Origin: a virus
DNA: 24,299 bases
Virus record (IMG/VR): IMGVR_UViG_3300008120_000649
Location: 1-24,299 of that record
Reading direction: 5' to 3' (one strand)
Shown here: piece by piece, positions 2,719-22,826 of the stretch
Layout: every line of letters starts with the position of its first letter
Position numbering within the stretch: the stretch's first letter is position 1
Notes under the pieces: model-generated
Told to the model about the DNA's origin: nothing
Database searches by the model: none
Seen by the model: only the letters and a program-made list of their open reading frames with translations
Program-made: the position numbers and the translations under genes

Positions 2719-4034
2719 TGATAGTAGATGCAGTATTAACTTATCAATTCATCAAGAAATTGATAACTCCTTTTAATAAGATGCCTGCTTACGCTTTACA
2801 GTTAATCGATGAGAACGGCAACTTCCTCAAGAGAAGAAACAACTTCACATCACAAGAGAAGAAAGCATTAGGTCTATTTGACATAATGGTCATCAATCTT
2901 AAGAAACTGATCGCCAAGGTACCTTTCGGCAAGACCCGGATCGCTACTCTCGCAGCTGCTATGATGCTTCTAAGATCGACTCCTCTAAAAGAAGATGTGA
3001 TGACTGATACGTTGTTTTCTCTAGAAGAAGACTTCAATAAAACATTAGAAGTAGAAGAATTAGAGTTGATGGAAGATATGGGTGCTGTTAATAATGTGGG
3101 CATCATAGCATCAACTGGCGATCTTAGACTGCCACTAGATCAAAGGGAACCAGGTGTATCTAGATCAGCTGCCATGAGATACAAAGGTAAGAATAAAAAG
3201 GGCGCACCGTCACCGATAATTGCTCCTATGCTGAGCCGTGCCACAAAGAACGTTTTCAATGTCGTGAAGAAGGGTGTGTTAAAATCTATCCTAGAAGATA
3301 CCACGCTACAATATCATACAGAATTAAATTCTAAGATCTGGGATGGGATGAAGCTAAAGGATGAAGTCAGGGGCAAATTGCTTCAGATCGCTTCAGCATG
3401 GGTACAGTTTGCTAAGATTCATCCTGATACGATACAGGACATAATCATCACAGGCGGTAATGTCAATTACAATTATACACCACAATCAGACATCGATCTG
3501 CATATCGTGATCTCTAGAGATACGATGAATCCGGATAGAGCGCTCGTAGATGAGTATCTACAGGATAAGAAGATCCTATGGACGCTCTCTCATCAAGACA
3601 TCAACATCTACGGATATCCTGTAGAGCTGTATGCTCAAGATATCGCTGAGCAACCACATGCCAACCAGGGTGTGTTTTCTGTGAAGAGAAATCAATGGAT
3701 CGCTATGCCACAGCATCTTGACATTGACTTCGAAAGCGACTATCATTTACAGAAGAAAGTGCAATTCTATAAAGATCTGATCGATAAGATGGTGTTACAG
3801 AATGCTACTGACGGATCATTCGATATGATTAAGCAAAAAATCAAGAAGATGCGTGGCGATTCTATCGCTAAAGACGGTGAGTTTGCTTTCGGTAACCTAG
3901 TGTTCAAAGAGCTCCGTAACCAGGGTTACTTAGATAAGATGGACATGTATCAGAAATCTAACCAAGATAAGGCGGATAATCGGCGGGGTGATGCTTGCTA
4001 TCACAACAGGATATACTTGGTTAAAGATACATGA
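2718..4034 (+). CDS. Two-domain protein with C-terminal nucleotidyltransferase fold
   Basis: 438 residues. Residues 1-95 form an N-terminal domain (MIVDAVLTYQFIKKLITPFNK...) that I recall as a conserved protein next to virion genes of marine T4-like phages. An acidic, low-complexity linker follows (about 95-125). From about residue 195 there is a DNA polymerase beta-type nucleotidyltransferase domain: GGN at 246-248 and SDIDLH at 257-262 give the G-G and D258-x-D260 metal-binding motif, followed by DINIYGYPVELYAQDIAE. Such enzymes add a nucleotide to protein, RNA or an antibiotic; the substrate here is unknown. The last 47 bases overlap the next gene in another frame, so the C-terminal tail (RRGDACYHNRIYLVKDT) is shaped by that overlap. 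Confidence 0.75.
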   Translation: MIVDAVLTYQFIKKLITPFNKMPAYALQLIDENGNFLKRRNNFTSQEKKALGLFDIMVINLKKLIAKVPFGKTRIATLAAAMMLLRSTPLKEDVMTDTLFSLEEDFNKTLEVEELELMEDMGAVNNVGIIASTGDLRLPLDQREPGVSRSAAMRYKGKNKKGAPSPIIAPMLSRATKNVFNVVKKGVLKSILEDTTLQYHTELNSKIWDGMKLKDEVRGKLLQIASAWVQFAKIHPDTIQDIIITGGNVNYNYTPQSDIDLHIVISRDTMNPDRALVDEYLQDKKILWTLSHQDINIYGYPVELYAQDIAEQPHANQGVFSVKRNQWIAMPQHLDIDFESDYHLQKKVQFYKDLIDKMVLQNATDGSFDMIKQKIKKMRGDSIAKDGEFAFGNLVFKELRNQGYLDKMDMYQKSNQDKADNRRGDACYHNRIYLVKDT

Positions 4035-8147: not shown

Positions 8148-10073
8148 ATGAGCAATTTCCTACCAACGCTATACCAAGAATTCATCTATAAGAGCAGGTA
8201 TTCTAAATTCCTAGATAAAGAAGGTCGTCGTGAGAATTGGTCTGAGACCGTATCTCGTTATTTTGATTTCATGGTTAAGCATCTGTCTGAAAACCATAAT
8301 TATTCATTGCCTAAAGCAGAACGTAAAGAACTAGAAGAAGCGATCCTCAATCTCGAGATCATGCCCTCGATGCGTGCTTTGATGACTGCAGGACCTTCCC
8401 TAGAACGTGATAACACATGTGCTTACAACTGCTCGTATGTCGCTGTAGATGATCCTAAGTCATTCGATGAGACGATGCTCATCCTCATGAACGGCACAGG
8501 TGTCGGGTTCTCTGTAGAACGCCAGTATGTCAATAACCTCCCAGAGATTCCTGCTAAGATGTTCGATAGCGATACGACTATCATCGTAAAGGATTCTAAA
8601 GAAGGTTGGGCGAAGGGTTTCCGTCAGTTGATCGCTCTTCTTTATTCTGGAGAAGTCCCTAAGTGGGACCTAGCGCTACTTCGTCCTGCAGGTGCTCGCC
8701 TAAAGACGTTCGGCGGCCGCTCGTCAGGTCCGGGTCCTCTAGATGATCTCTTTAAGTTCACTGTCCGTATGTTCCGTGGCGCGACAGGTCGTAAGTTAAA
8801 CTCTCTAGAATGTCATGATATTATGTGTAAGATCGGCGAAGTAGTCGTCGTGGGCGGTGTCCGTAGGTCAGCGATGATCTCGCTATCTAACTTGACAGAT
8901 GAGCGCATGAGGACTGCTAAGAACGGTTCGTGGTGGGAGACAAATCCACAGCGCGCTCTCTCTAACAATTCTGCTGCATATACAGAGAAGCCAGAGATGG
9001 GTACATTCATGCGTGAATGGTTGTCTCTATATGATTCTAAGTCAGGTGAGCGTGGTATCTTCTCTCGTGTAGCATCACAGAACCAAGCGAAGAAGTTCGG
9101 TCGTCGTGATCCAGAACACGAATTTGGGACCAATCCTTGTTCTGAGATCATCCTTCGTCCTAATCAGTTCTGTAACTTGACAGAAGTCGTCGTCCGTGGG
9201 ACAGATAGTGTGGTTGATCTTCAGCGTAAAGTACGTCTTGCTGCTCGTCTCGGCACTCTACAGTCGACTCTCACTAAGTTCCCATATCTCCGTAAAGTAT
9301 GGACAAACAATACAGAAGAAGAACGTTTGCTAGGCGTCAGCATGACAGGTATCATGGATAATACGTTAACAAATGGTAAAGACAAAAACATCGATCTAAA
9401 ACATATGTTAGAGTCTCTCCGTGATATAGCAGTTGCAGCAAATAAAGAATTTGCGGTAGCTCTAGGCATTCCTCAATCGACCGCTGTTACTTGTGTTAAG
9501 CCGTCAGGTACTGTATCACAGTTGGTCGATTCTGCTTCAGGCATCCATGCTCGCCATAATGATTATTACATTCGTACAGTACGTGGCGACAACAAAGATC
9601 CATTGACGATGCTTCTCAAGGAATCAGGTTTTCCTAATGAACCGTGTGTCATGAAGCCAGATGCGACTACAGTGTTCTCTTTCCCTGTCAAGGCGCCTGA
9701 TGGTGCAGTGACTCGTACAGAGATGACCGCAGTAGAACAGTTAGAGATGTGGATGATCTATCAGCGCCATTGGTGTGAGCATAAACCATCTGTGACCATC
9801 ACAGTCAAGGAAGATGAATGGATGGCAGTGGGTTCGTTCGTATACGAATACTTTGACGAGATGTCTGGTGTATCATTCTTGCCGCATTCTGATCATACTT
9901 ATCGCCAAGCACCCTATCAGGATTGCTCAAAAGATGAGTATGAAGCATTAGATGCGACCATGCCTAAGATCATCGATTGGGATAAGCTAGCACAATATGA
10001 GAAGGAAGATAATACTAAGGGTTCTCAGACCCTTGCTTGTGCTGCTGACGGGTGTGAGATCGTTGACCTCTAA
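8148..10073 (+). CDS. nrdJ: Class II ribonucleotide reductase (adenosylcobalamin-dependent, monomeric type)
   Basis: 641 residues. Reduces ribonucleotides to deoxyribonucleotides with a B12-derived radical, supplying DNA synthesis without need of an NrdB subunit or oxygen. The N-terminal part carries NTCAYNCSYVAVDD (C91, C95) and MNGTGVGFSVER, typical of the monomeric triphosphate reductase. NPCSEI holds the catalytic cysteine C331, and FCNLTEVV gives C342; their 11-residue spacing equals C408 and C419 of the Lactobacillus enzyme. VKPSGTVSQLVDSASGIHAR is the conserved barrel segment. The C-terminal LACAADGCEIVDL gives the redox pair C631-x4-C636 that is re-reduced by thioredoxin or glutaredoxin. 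It is about 100 residues shorter than the Lactobacillus enzyme. The host or its surroundings must supply cobalamin. Confidence 0.92.
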   Translation: MSNFLPTLYQEFIYKSRYSKFLDKEGRRENWSETVSRYFDFMVKHLSENHNYSLPKAERKELEEAILNLEIMPSMRALMTAGPSLERDNTCAYNCSYVAVDDPKSFDETMLILMNGTGVGFSVERQYVNNLPEIPAKMFDSDTTIIVKDSKEGWAKGFRQLIALLYSGEVPKWDLALLRPAGARLKTFGGRSSGPGPLDDLFKFTVRMFRGATGRKLNSLECHDIMCKIGEVVVVGGVRRSAMISLSNLTDERMRTAKNGSWWETNPQRALSNNSAAYTEKPEMGTFMREWLSLYDSKSGERGIFSRVASQNQAKKFGRRDPEHEFGTNPCSEIILRPNQFCNLTEVVVRGTDSVVDLQRKVRLAARLGTLQSTLTKFPYLRKVWTNNTEEERLLGVSMTGIMDNTLTNGKDKNIDLKHMLESLRDIAVAANKEFAVALGIPQSTAVTCVKPSGTVSQLVDSASGIHARHNDYYIRTVRGDNKDPLTMLLKESGFPNEPCVMKPDATTVFSFPVKAPDGAVTRTEMTAVEQLEMWMIYQRHWCEHKPSVTITVKEDEWMAVGSFVYEYFDEMSGVSFLPHSDHTYRQAPYQDCSKDEYEALDATMPKIIDWDKLAQYEKEDNTKGSQTLACAADGCEIVDL

Positions 10074-20330: not shown

Positions 20331-21054
20331 ATTGCAGTCTAACAATCAGATCATAGCATATTATATGCATACTGACAACTCTCTTACCTTAGATAAAGGA
20401 AGATTAGAGAGATATTGGATGGATAGGTCAAAGGCATATCGTTGCCTTCCTATGGGAATCGCCAATCAACACGGATGGGCATTTTATCTGAAAGAAGATA
20501 TTCAGGTGTCATGGGACGGCACTGATGCTTTTGATGGCGTAAGAATACATAAAAATTATAACAACATTGCTAAGAGCATATTTGGCATGGGTATCGTGAC
20601 CTTTAGCATCGATTGCGTAATACGAACTCCTCCTAATTATAACATTTATATCACAGGAGCTCCGAATTTTGTTAAGCCCGGTGCTCACCCCCTTTCTGGT
20701 GTATATGAGGCAGATTGGGCGCCATATACCTTTACAATGAATTGGCAATTAACAGATGCATATCGAGTAATCAATTTCAATAAAGATGAACCGATATGTT
20801 TTTTCTTTCCTGTATTGAGAAATACTATAGAAGATATGGTGATGATCAAGAAAGATATGAAATCTAATCCTGAATTATTAGAACAATACAATGCTTTTGT
20901 TGTTAGCAGACACAATTTCATACAGAGCAAGACGGAATATGACAGAGATTGGCAAAAACATTACTTTAAAGGACATTATCTTGACGGATCAAAATGCCCT
21001 TTCAACCACCAAACTAAACTAAATGTCAAAACTATAGATGAAAATAATAGTTGA
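20308..21054 (+). CDS. DUF6065 family protein
   Basis: 248 residues. The start IIAYYMHTDNSLTLDKGRLERYWMDRS, then CLPMGIANQHGWAF and the tail HNFIQSKTEYDRDWQKHYFKGHY...NHQTKLNV, fit the DUF6065 family found in phages and some bacteria. FSIDCVIRTPPNYNIYITGAPN and ADWAPYTFTMNW suggest a compact beta-rich sensor- or enzyme-like fold of unknown activity. Overlaps the nuclease gene by 23 bases. Ends just as the tmRNA promoter starts (TTGACA at 21051). Confidence 0.75.
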   Translation: MQISSEYKLQSNNQIIAYYMHTDNSLTLDKGRLERYWMDRSKAYRCLPMGIANQHGWAFYLKEDIQVSWDGTDAFDGVRIHKNYNNIAKSIFGMGIVTFSIDCVIRTPPNYNIYITGAPNFVKPGAHPLSGVYEADWAPYTFTMNWQLTDAYRVINFNKDEPICFFFPVLRNTIEDMVMIKKDMKSNPELLEQYNAFVVSRHNFIQSKTEYDRDWQKHYFKGHYLDGSKCPFNHQTKLNVKTIDENNS

Positions 21055-21084
21055 CATATAACATATAATAAACTATTATAAATA
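21051..21084 (+). promoter_or_regulatory. Overlapping early (sigma70) and late (TATAAATA) promoters of the tmRNA
   Basis: TTGACA 21051-21056, 17-base spacer, TATTAT 21074-21079 forms a sigma70-type promoter. An exact T4 late box TATAAATA lies at 21077-21084 and overlaps its -10. Both would start transcription just before or at the acceptor piece of the tmRNA. Confidence 0.7.
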
Positions 21085-21156
21085 CTATGCTGATGTCGTT
21101 GACATCTAATGGAATAGACACTGAGGACCCGGGGGCAGTACCCGGCGCCTCCACCA
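21085..21156 (+). ncRNA. tmRNA acceptor piece (T-arm and CCA end)
   Basis: CCGGG (21129-21133), 7-base loop GGCAGTA, CCCGG (21141-21145), then acceptor strand CGCCTCC (21146-21152), A, CCA (21154-21156). From memory this is nearly the 3' end of alphaproteobacterial tmRNAs. A hairpin GATGTC/GACATC lies at 21092-21106. AGACA at 21116-21120 could pair with TGTCT at 21229-21233 as part of the P2 helix. Confidence 0.85.
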
Positions 21157-21303
21157 AAAAGAAGTTATATATGATATATGTGAGAGACGAAGGTCAAAAG
21201 ATAAAAAATGGGATAAATTTTTATCCATTGTCTTCAAACCACGTTGGTTTTGTAATTAGGTTGTAGTAAAGATAAGATCGAGACAGAAGCAAAAAAACTA
21301 AAT

Positions 21304-21360
21304 GCAAGAACTGCATCTAATGACAACGTTCCTTATTCCGCAATGAAAATTGCTGCTTAA
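21304..21360 (+). other. tmRNA tag reading frame
   Basis: GCA at 21304 starts ARTASNDNVPYSAMKIAA-stop (TAA 21358-21360). The second GCA at 21313 gives ASNDNVPYSAMKIAA. NDN near the start and a final AA are shared with alphaproteobacterial tags (for example ANDN...AVAA), so resumption is likely at one of these two Ala codons. Confidence 0.8.
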
Positions 21361-21371
21361 GAATTGAGTCT

Positions 21372-21407
21372 GGGGTATGAGCTCCACCCTATCAAACAAC
21401 GGGCTCA
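21372..21407 (+). other. H-type pseudoknot in the tmRNA coding piece
   Basis: Stem 1: GGGGT (21372-21376) with ACCCT (21386-21390). Stem 2: TGAGCTC (21378-21384) with GGGCTCA (21401-21407). The stems interlock with a 1-base first loop and a 10-base second loop, 12 bases after the tag stop, where tmRNAs carry a pseudoknot. Confidence 0.8.
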
Positions 21408-21426
21408 CTTAATATTTGGAGTGAAT

Positions 21427-21786
21427 ATGATATATGGGTTGTATAAACTTTTTGAGGAAATGATGGCATTTACATTGAATAGGAACCCTCCTAACGAAGA
21501 AAATAAAGAACAAGAACAACCCGAACCTAATGTTAGTTTGTTCTCGAAGATTGCCAATAAGAAAGAGGCTGTCAATCATCCTGAACACTACGGCGGCAAG
21601 GAAAATCCTTATGAAGCAATCAAAGTGATAAGGGCTTGGGAATTGGGATTCTCGCTAGGAAATACGGTCAAATATATTGCTCGTGCAGGAAAGAAGGATC
21701 CTTCGAAGAGGATCGAAGATCTGCATAAAGCGATGTGGTATCTACAAGAAGAGATCAATAGCGAATACGAAAAGATCGCTAAGTGA
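21427..21786 (+). CDS. DUF3310 protein (T7 gp1.7-like nucleotide kinase family)
   Basis: 119 residues from ATG 21427, chosen for GGAG at 21418-21421; a frame reading further upstream would run through the tmRNA and is not real. Residues about 48-112 are the DUF3310 core: VNHPEHYGGKENPYEAIKVIRAWELGFSLGNTVKYIARAGKKDPSKRIEDLHKAMWYLQEE. T7 gp1.7 of this family is a nucleotide kinase acting on dTMP and dGMP, so a role in nucleotide supply is plausible. The N-terminal 45 residues are a poorly conserved, Pro/Glu-rich lead. Confidence 0.85.
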   Translation: MIYGLYKLFEEMMAFTLNRNPPNEENKEQEQPEPNVSLFSKIANKKEAVNHPEHYGGKENPYEAIKVIRAWELGFSLGNTVKYIARAGKKDPSKRIEDLHKAMWYLQEEINSEYEKIAK

Positions 21787-21821
21787 ACTGACACAACAAA
21801 CACACAACAGGAGACTATAAC

Positions 21822-22031
21822 ATGACTAAGACACCATACGAGATCCGCCTCGATCTATTGAATTTTGCACAGAGCCAACTCACAGGTCAGTATTACGCTG
21901 ATCTAGAACGTGCTCGTGAGATTCAAGATCAAGCAGAGCGTGAGACGATGATCTCAAGACTAGGATATCCAACTAAATCTGAAATCTTGCTATTAGCAGA
22001 AGATCTCAAGAGTTTCGTTGATAATAAGTAA
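21822..22031 (+). CDS. Small conserved phage protein, unknown function
   Basis: 69 residues: MTKTPYEIRLDLLNFAQSQL and ending LGYPTKSEILLLAEDLKSFVDNK. Helical with a regular charge pattern. The MTKTPYEIRLDLL start recurs, as I recall, in small proteins of T4-like marine phages near gene 33. CAGGAGAC lies ahead of the ATG. Function unknown. Confidence 0.75.
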   Translation: MTKTPYEIRLDLLNFAQSQLTGQYYADLERAREIQDQAERETMISRLGYPTKSEILLLAEDLKSFVDNK

Positions 22032-22048: not shown

Positions 22049-22282
22049 ATGCAGTTAAATAACATCAAGACATCATCAGATTTTGTGAAAGAGATAACAC
22101 AGCTAGTATCAGATAAGAAGATCGGATTCTTTGATGCTGTCATCTATTATTGCGAGACACACAATATCGAAGTAGAAACTGCGGCTTCGATGATCAAGCA
22201 AAGCACTCTATTGAAATCTAAGATCCAATATGAGGCTGAAGAACTCAATCTGATGAGAAAGACAGCACGACTGCCGATTTAA
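22049..22282 (+). CDS. 33: Late transcription coactivator gp33
   Basis: 77 residues. Bridges RNA polymerase to the sliding clamp so that the gp55-polymerase fires at TATAAATA late promoters. The sequence fits the gp33 type: helical body DKKIGFFDAVIYYCETHNIEVETAASMIKQSTLLKSKIQYEAEELNLM and a short hydrophobic C-terminus KTARLPI of the kind that docks on the clamp. Position before gp59 and gp32 matches T4 order and lifts confidence. GAGGAAC precedes the ATG. Its 3' end overlaps the tail of the reverse-strand endonuclease by 38 bases. Confidence 0.85.
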   Translation: MQLNNIKTSSDFVKEITQLVSDKKIGFFDAVIYYCETHNIEVETAASMIKQSTLLKSKIQYEAEELNLMRKTARLPI

Positions 22283-22775
22283 TTACGTTAGTACGTCTTG
22301 TTATCCAAGCTTTTTTTGCTGATTCTATGCCTCTCGGAATACCTTTACGTCCCATGAGAGCTCTAGCTTCTGGTGATGGATTATAGTTAGGTCTTTTATA
22401 CCCAGATTTTCTTGGATTTTTTTGAGGGCCTCTTGGACCTTTTTCAACTCTAAGTTTTTCTCTTATATGTTCTGGTTTAGGTCCAAATTTACGCCCTTTA
22501 TTAGTAGATCCTCCCTGACCTTCTTCTAAAGTTAAATTAGCCCATTCGTTTGATTTAACTATATTCCATAATTTAGAATAAAAAATTGCAGTATTTTTAA
22601 ATACTTCTTTATCTTTAGTTTGAAATATTATTTCAGTTGAAATACTATAACCATGTTCTTTTAAATGACGTTGCCAATATTTACCTGAGCCGTTATAATT
22701 GTATGGGTTATGAGTAGTTTTACCGAGGTATTTTAACCCGGTCAAATTATGTGTTTTTACATATAAATAGATCAT
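22245..22775 (-). mobile_element. GIY-YIG homing endonuclease gene
   Basis: 176 residues from ATG 22775 on the reverse strand, with AGGAG 8 bases ahead. The N-terminus MIYLYVKTHNLTGLKYLGKT gives the two motifs of the GIY-YIG nuclease (Y3-L-Y5 and Y16-L-G18), followed by NPYNYNGSGKYWQRHL. From about residue 90 the tail is basic and repetitive (KFGPKPEHIREKLR, KNPRKSGYKRPNYNPSPEARALMGRKG), like the NUMOD3-type DNA-binding motifs of such enzymes. It is a free-standing selfish gene between 33 and 59 and runs against them. Its AT-rich codon use differs from its neighbours. A TATAAATA late box is placed ahead of it at 22838-22831. Confidence 0.88.
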
Positions 22776-22798
22776 GCTGTGTCTCCTATTGACATAGA

Positions 22799-22826
22799 GT
22801 AGTTGGGACTCCACTCCGTGAACTAC
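22799..22826. other. Stem-loop in the gp33-gp59 junction
   Basis: GTAGTT (22799-22804) pairs with AACTAC (22821-22826) around a 16-base loop rich in CTCC. It lies between the endonuclease start and gp59. Could be a remnant of the insertion site or an RNA element; undecided. Confidence 0.3.

Follow-up and report, generated by a model that had tools for sequence, protein, structure and literature searches.

A probable deletion-broken permuted tmRNA gene in a phage genome, and relatives whose intervening segment may serve as an intron-like slot for small-protein and HNH endonuclease genes

The stretch of viral DNA analyzed here (IMG/VR record IMGVR_UViG_3300008120_000649, positions 1 to 24,299; 24,299 nt, hereafter the window) very probably carries a phage permuted tmRNA gene that has been broken by a deletion, and the intervening segment (ITS) of its relatives very probably acts as an intron-like slot for small protein genes and an HNH endonuclease. 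With somewhat less assurance, we consider it likely that the ITS of aquatic phages as a whole forms an intron-like niche without an intron, occupied by small-protein families and by an HNH lineage that homes to tmRNA genes under T4-like late and hairpin control, the gene in the window being a deletion-broken example.

Results

Elements of a permuted tmRNA in the window

An earlier note on this DNA had described a phage-borne, permuted tmRNA of the alphaproteobacterial type, comprising a T-arm with CCA end, an Ala-starting tag and a pseudoknot with stems of 5 and 7 bp. Rfam and the sequence itself placed all of these elements where the note had them (Table 1), and its call of both family and origin was right. 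The order of the elements is permuted i.e., T-arm and CCA lie upstream of the tag and the pseudoknot lies 3' of it. The acceptor piece (GGACCCGGGGGCAGTACCCGGCGCCTCCACCA) is a near-perfect match to the alpha-tmRNA consensus and, by segment comparison, is the same in two closely related contigs, L130 and L215. The tag begins with an Ala codon and ends in Ala-Ala-stop, with 56-57 of its 57 nt kept in six siblings. The pseudoknot stems are GGGGT/ACCCT and TGAGCTC/GGGCTCA; in L089 the bases of stem 2 are changed, yet 7/7 still pair. Over all loci, pseudoknot covariation was weak, with full 7-bp stems in 37% of cases vs 17% with permuted partners.

The covariance search that the note had proposed, with the Rfam alpha_tmRNA model (RF01849), gave a significant match (39.9 bits, E = 6e-10), but one under the gathering score of 50; likewise, tmRNA_permuted (RF04321) matched at 38.4 bits (E = 4e-6; gathering score 47). 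Given these two E values, the elements are not there by chance. ARAGORN reported no tmRNA in the window, and it missed the intact siblings too.

Table 1. Features of the tmRNA region in the window (position 1 is the first base of the window).
Feature	Position	Strand	Basis
T4-type late promoter motif TATAAATA, 48 nt upstream of T-arm	21077-21084	+	motif
Sigma-70-like promoter, TTGACA-17-TATTAT	21051-21079	+	11/12 consensus bases, consensus match only
Acceptor piece of permuted tmRNA: T-arm, 3' acceptor strand CGCCTCC, encoded CCA	21125-21156	+	RF01849/RF04321 alignment
ITS remnant, 3' part deleted	21157-21265	+	alignment with L130, L215, L146, L217
Truncated ITS ORF, 31 codons, MIYVRDEGQ...VIRL-stop	21171-21266	+	54 aa in intact siblings
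98-nt deletion junction, between 21265 and 21266; microhomology TGTA at 21262-21265	21262-21266	+	sibling alignment
Remaining 5' part of coding piece, without 5' acceptor strand and D-like region	21266-21303	+	sibling comparison
Tag reading frame, ARTASNDNVPYSAMKIAA-TAA	21304-21360	+	sequence
H-type pseudoknot, stems of 5 + 7 pairs	21372-21407	+	sequence

The window copy lacks 98 nt that its siblings retain

Relatives were collected by scanning IMG/VR with a T-arm pattern, which returned more than 100 contigs, most of them with an intact permuted tmRNA; L130, L215, L146 and L217 were aligned with the window across the ITS and the junction. Compared segment by segment (lead, acceptor, pre-tag, tag, pseudoknot, downstream gene), L130 and L215 are the same as the window (>99.6% identity over 20950-21850), and have 98 nt more at the junction. 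What these 98 nt contain is the last part of the ITS together with the RNase P site, GGGGGCG as the 5' acceptor strand (with G3.U70), and the D-like region GGATCGAC. In both siblings, GGGGGCG...GGATCGAC sits just upstream of a 38-nt stretch that is 38/38 identical to the pre-tag segment of the window; the acceptor strand and the D-like region are thus present in the intact siblings and missing from the window copy. Both siblings pass the Rfam cut-offs (89.9 bits for L130 and 89.0 for L215, vs 39.9/38.4 for the window). The four bases TGTA at the junction are common to the window and to the lost segment.

A search of the whole window with GGGGGCGAAATAGGATCGAC, allowing up to three mismatches, returned 0 matches to a 5' acceptor strand able to pair with CGCCTCC, and no other 5' piece was found. 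The earlier note had placed the beginning of a second RNA near 21180-21200 (gagagacgaagg). These bases are spacer within a protein-coding frame, and as a candidate 5' piece they were ruled out, since the intact siblings have that stretch plus the true 5' piece.

The siblings being intact and the lost region being found nowhere else in the window, we regard the window copy as a broken derivative, with an assembly error less likely. By ancestry it evidently is a phage alphaproteobacterial-type permuted tmRNA gene. Judged from what is left of it, this copy cannot serve as an acceptor for alanine and is probably non-functional: by removing the D-like region and the 5' acceptor strand along with the 3' end of the ITS, the deletion would have abolished alanine charging and normal SmpB binding. 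The intact siblings may plausibly have a role in infection, whereas the window copy would not.

Acceptor pairing across the ITS is invariant among intact viral genes

In 198 viral genes passing an acceptor filter that tolerated one mismatch, acceptor pair 5:68, which spans the ITS, exhibited perfect covariation (GC 105, CG 47, TA 38, AT 8, mismatch 0), and G3.U70, the alanine identity pair, was present in 198/198. The ends of the ITS also pair with each other and so lengthen the acceptor stem, with at least six uninterrupted bp in 97% of viral genes vs 9% of shuffled sequences. The siblings would be transcribed as a single RNA in the order acceptor piece, ITS, coding piece. From the known processing of alpha tmRNA we infer that RNase P and 3' processing remove the ITS, with the two RNAs staying joined via the acceptor stem. 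No SmpB was found among nine records from siblings or related phages, of which several are short fragments.

The complete, working two-piece tmRNA that the earlier note had proposed for the window, with a divergent 5' piece, keeps an intact T-arm, tag and pseudoknot on its side. Siblings that are the same in the other tmRNA segments nevertheless have the additional 98 nt, including the 5' acceptor strand that the window lacks, and carry the presumed 5' piece alongside the real one; with acceptor pairing invariant across the 198 viral genes, a functional window copy is highly improbable.

In an assembly or chimeric-read artefact, the real phage would have an intact permuted tmRNA like that of L130 and L215. 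The junction was not found in any other viral contig, the two contigs matching in all tmRNA segments are intact, and 4-nt microhomology is typical of chimeric reads, though equally of real deletions. A k-mer assembler, however, would not be misled by 4 nt alone, and the remaining region matches the siblings base by base; we consider an artefact a minority possibility that deserves to be kept in mind. That the remnant serves as a decoy, its acceptor piece or charge-less coding piece disturbing the host tmRNA, is very unlikely. A CDS-less tmRNA form of phage DS6A has been reported to inhibit the endogenous tmRNA (PMC11915505), and the promoter, tag and T-arm of the window are unmutated. Against this, DS6A keeps the tRNA-like domain that is broken in the window, the deletion occurs in one contig only, and near-identity with the siblings implies that the window copy is too young for visible selection.

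Several related loci were observed alongside these. L089 and L121 share the acceptor piece and ITS with L130 and L115, the two pairs differing in the coding piece (classic tag ANDNFVSQDYALAA) and in the downstream gene; this points to recombination within the tmRNA gene. L453 (MT836065.1, human faeces), an unannotated gut phage fragment, has an alpha-type permuted tmRNA with a 14-nt ITS, and in Rhodobacter phage RcRudolph (L452, 49133-49468) a hypothetical protein is annotated over an apparently intact permuted tmRNA gene.

Promoters and phage context

In the window, TATAAATA overlaps the sigma-70-like site. The same motif was located before the T-arm, at a distance of 33-71 nt and nearly always of 42-49 nt, in 145/196 viral and 0/109 bacterial genes, and in about 2% of shuffled sequences. 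Its presence suggests late transcription of the phage permuted tmRNA; the T4-type late promoter most likely drives the sibling transcript, and an early promoter may possibly do so too.

Elsewhere in the window, a B12-type ribonucleotide reductase (8148-10073) has its nearest matches in Roseobacter-phage proteins, being about 70% identical to those of podoviruses, and T4-like gp32/primase-type genes are present. The likeness of the B12-dependent reductase suggests an alphaproteobacterial host.

The ITS of relatives carries small-protein genes

Bacterial alpha tmRNAs were collected with the same T-arm pattern as the viral ones. The viral ITS had a median length of 85 nt (n=199 genes), compared with 29 nt for the alphaproteobacterial ITS (n=111, longest 139; p = 8e-29); the viral set was sampled by exact patterns, one of which favours TTTGATGGGG ends, and percentages drawn from it are not population estimates. 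The ITS of L036 is 28 nt long. Most viral ITS of at least 135 nt have an ORF spanning roughly 65-92% of their length.

In the siblings, a 54-aa ORF (MIYVRDEG) fills the 180-nt ITS; because of the 98-nt deletion, it is down to 31 codons in the window. Homologues of this ORF are free-standing in L137 (56% identity) and L138 (49%), with substitutions mostly at third positions. A second family, KNPLV, which consists of small membrane proteins, lies inside the ITS at 64 loci, and at 63 of these its TGA stop ends 1 nt before the mature coding piece; at a few loci the family is free-standing. Over 20 members its dN/dS was about 0.2, with codon-position differences of 2145/1245/2859. DUF6356 was identified by Pfam in the ITS of L376 and L423 (46.2 bits, cut-off 24.4). 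By tblastn, homologues of MIYVRDEG and KNPLV were found in no named phages.

The view that such ORFs are not genes, and are frames left open by chance in AT-rich spacers, draws on several ITS shorter than 108 nt, which have no ORF beyond the shuffled-sequence level. Purifying selection, free-standing homologues, the Pfam match to DUF6356 and a 144-aa HNH enzyme (below) stand against it and make it scarcely credible as a general account; for the KNPLV, MIYVRDEG, DUF6356 and HNH families it was rejected, being contradicted by selection, homologues and family matches. Some ITS ORFs could still be rarely or never translated.

An HNH endonuclease lineage resides in the ITS

In L150 and L151, a 489-nt ITS encodes a 144-aa HNH protein, which matched phrog_655 (E = 5.7e-14) and scored 21.1 bits against Pfam HNH, slightly below the cut-off of 21.4. 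A scan for this protein yielded 30 relatives, 15 of them in an ITS, including every full-length one; relatives also occur in cyanophages and enteric T4-like phages. The tmRNA flanking the HNH genes had Rfam support in most cases tested, with L462 and L151 under the cut-offs. Before the ITS HNH ORF, a hairpin pairs the SD, and in most copies the loop or upper stem of this hairpin contains TATAAATA; in the L458 and L459 hairpins the motif is altered to TACTAAATA. Folding z-scores were between -3.0 and -5.3 for five of the seven hairpins folded, and weak for L456 (-1.8) and L460 (-1.6).

Compared with the window, the siblings L150 and L151 are the same at 56/57 positions of the tag and 327/345 of the downstream gene; L151 matches at 19/52 of the T-arm/acceptor and 24/38 of the pre-tag segment, with outer flanks about 90-98% identical. 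L151 and L130/L143 are alleles that carry and lack the endonuclease gene, respectively, and the tract surrounding it differs as if replaced, as co-conversion in homing would leave. We infer from these features that the HNH proteins of the ITS are homing endonucleases.

The permuted tmRNA of L464-L468 (GGGGGTGTTCCGGGAATCGAT) is more divergent, unlike the alpha consensus, and has an HNH gene in its 482-nt ITS; that of L465 scored 62 bits with RF04321. In L470 (2501-3190), an HNH relative lies directly upstream of, and outside, the permuted tmRNA (2977-3190), which is possibly an intermediate arrangement. On the minus strand of the window, about 0.45 kb past the gene downstream of the tmRNA, a gene at 22245-22814 has a weak match to the homing-endonuclease family phrog_314 (E 2e-7), with a GIY-YIG-like N-terminus and no Pfam match.

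Discussion

Introns and inteins, which excise themselves from the product, are the textbook carriers of homing endonucleases. With RNase P and 3' processing, a permuted tmRNA would offer a similar shelter, one that phages appear to have used repeatedly, for several protein families. The discarded ITS would constitute an intron-like slot in which cargo causes no harm to the mature tmRNA; such a niche would be possible because tRNA-type processing strips the cargo from the mature RNA. Two ideas become testable: that one transcript serves as both tmRNA precursor and mRNA, and that T4-like phages of alphaproteobacteria produce a ribosome-rescue RNA of their own in late infection. A warning also follows for annotation, as long spacers cause ARAGORN to miss many such genes and lower Rfam scores too. 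The lasting interest lies with the relatives of the window copy, in which a phage tmRNA spacer houses, in intron-like fashion, genes and putative homing endonucleases.

With known permuted two-piece tmRNAs (RF01849, RF04321) the window shares the acceptor-ITS-coding order, the T-arm consensus, the Ala-Ala tag end and the downstream pseudoknot, and its siblings share G3.U70. The window differs in that its 5' acceptor strand is missing, as is the D-like region, and the phage ITS differs from the bacterial one in being longer and often protein-coding.

Permuted tmRNA has been published for marine phages. Methylophilales phage Melnitz, an isolated T4-like phage, has an alpha-type two-piece ssrA, for which its authors put forward early expression, driven by a predicted sigma-70 promoter; the ITS is unmentioned in the searched text of that paper (PMC9004378). 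We found TATAAATA upstream of the Melnitz gene as well, and a 142-nt ITS with an SD and an ORF similar to the one in L429, for which the Melnitz record has no annotated CDS. The Melnitz gene thus shares its alpha type, two-piece form and upstream TATAAATA with the window, and differs in being intact. According to the same text, ARAGORN identified 53 two-piece tmRNA genes among 18,146 phage genomes (PMC9004378), a count that is likely low because the program misses many intact genes with a long ITS.

Phage-borne permuted tmRNA is therefore known, going by the searched text on Melnitz (PMC9004378); what appears to be new is the ITS as a gene-carrying segment, of which we found no earlier description. 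In the open-access literature, we found no description of protein genes or homing endonucleases in the ITS of permuted tmRNA; the ITS cargo given in the 2025 tmRNA database paper is a tRNA gene and a repeat, and the text of that paper names no protein gene there (PMC11915505). The same paper describes tmRNA genes with group I introns that carry LAGLIDADG endonucleases. Those genes resemble the present ones in having an endonuclease gene within the tmRNA gene, in a part missing from the mature RNA, and differ in being one-piece and bacterial, with a self-splicing T-loop intron and another enzyme class (PMC11915505).

A close parallel in control is that of the T4 endonucleases. For the intron enzymes I-TevI, I-TevII and I-TevIII and the free-standing SegB and Aeh1 MobE, translation is blocked early by a hairpin and becomes possible from a late promoter (PMC2988022). 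I-TevIII and MobE are HNH enzymes and the others are GIY-YIG (PMC2988022); the HNH lineage of the ITS has a similar hairpin and late-promoter motif. The T4 endonucleases are hosted in a removed RNA segment or, for SegB, a tRNA region (PMC2988022), and the ITS likewise would be a removed segment. Unlike the T4 introns, the host segment here is the ITS of a permuted tmRNA, with predicted tRNA-type processing in place of a ribozyme.
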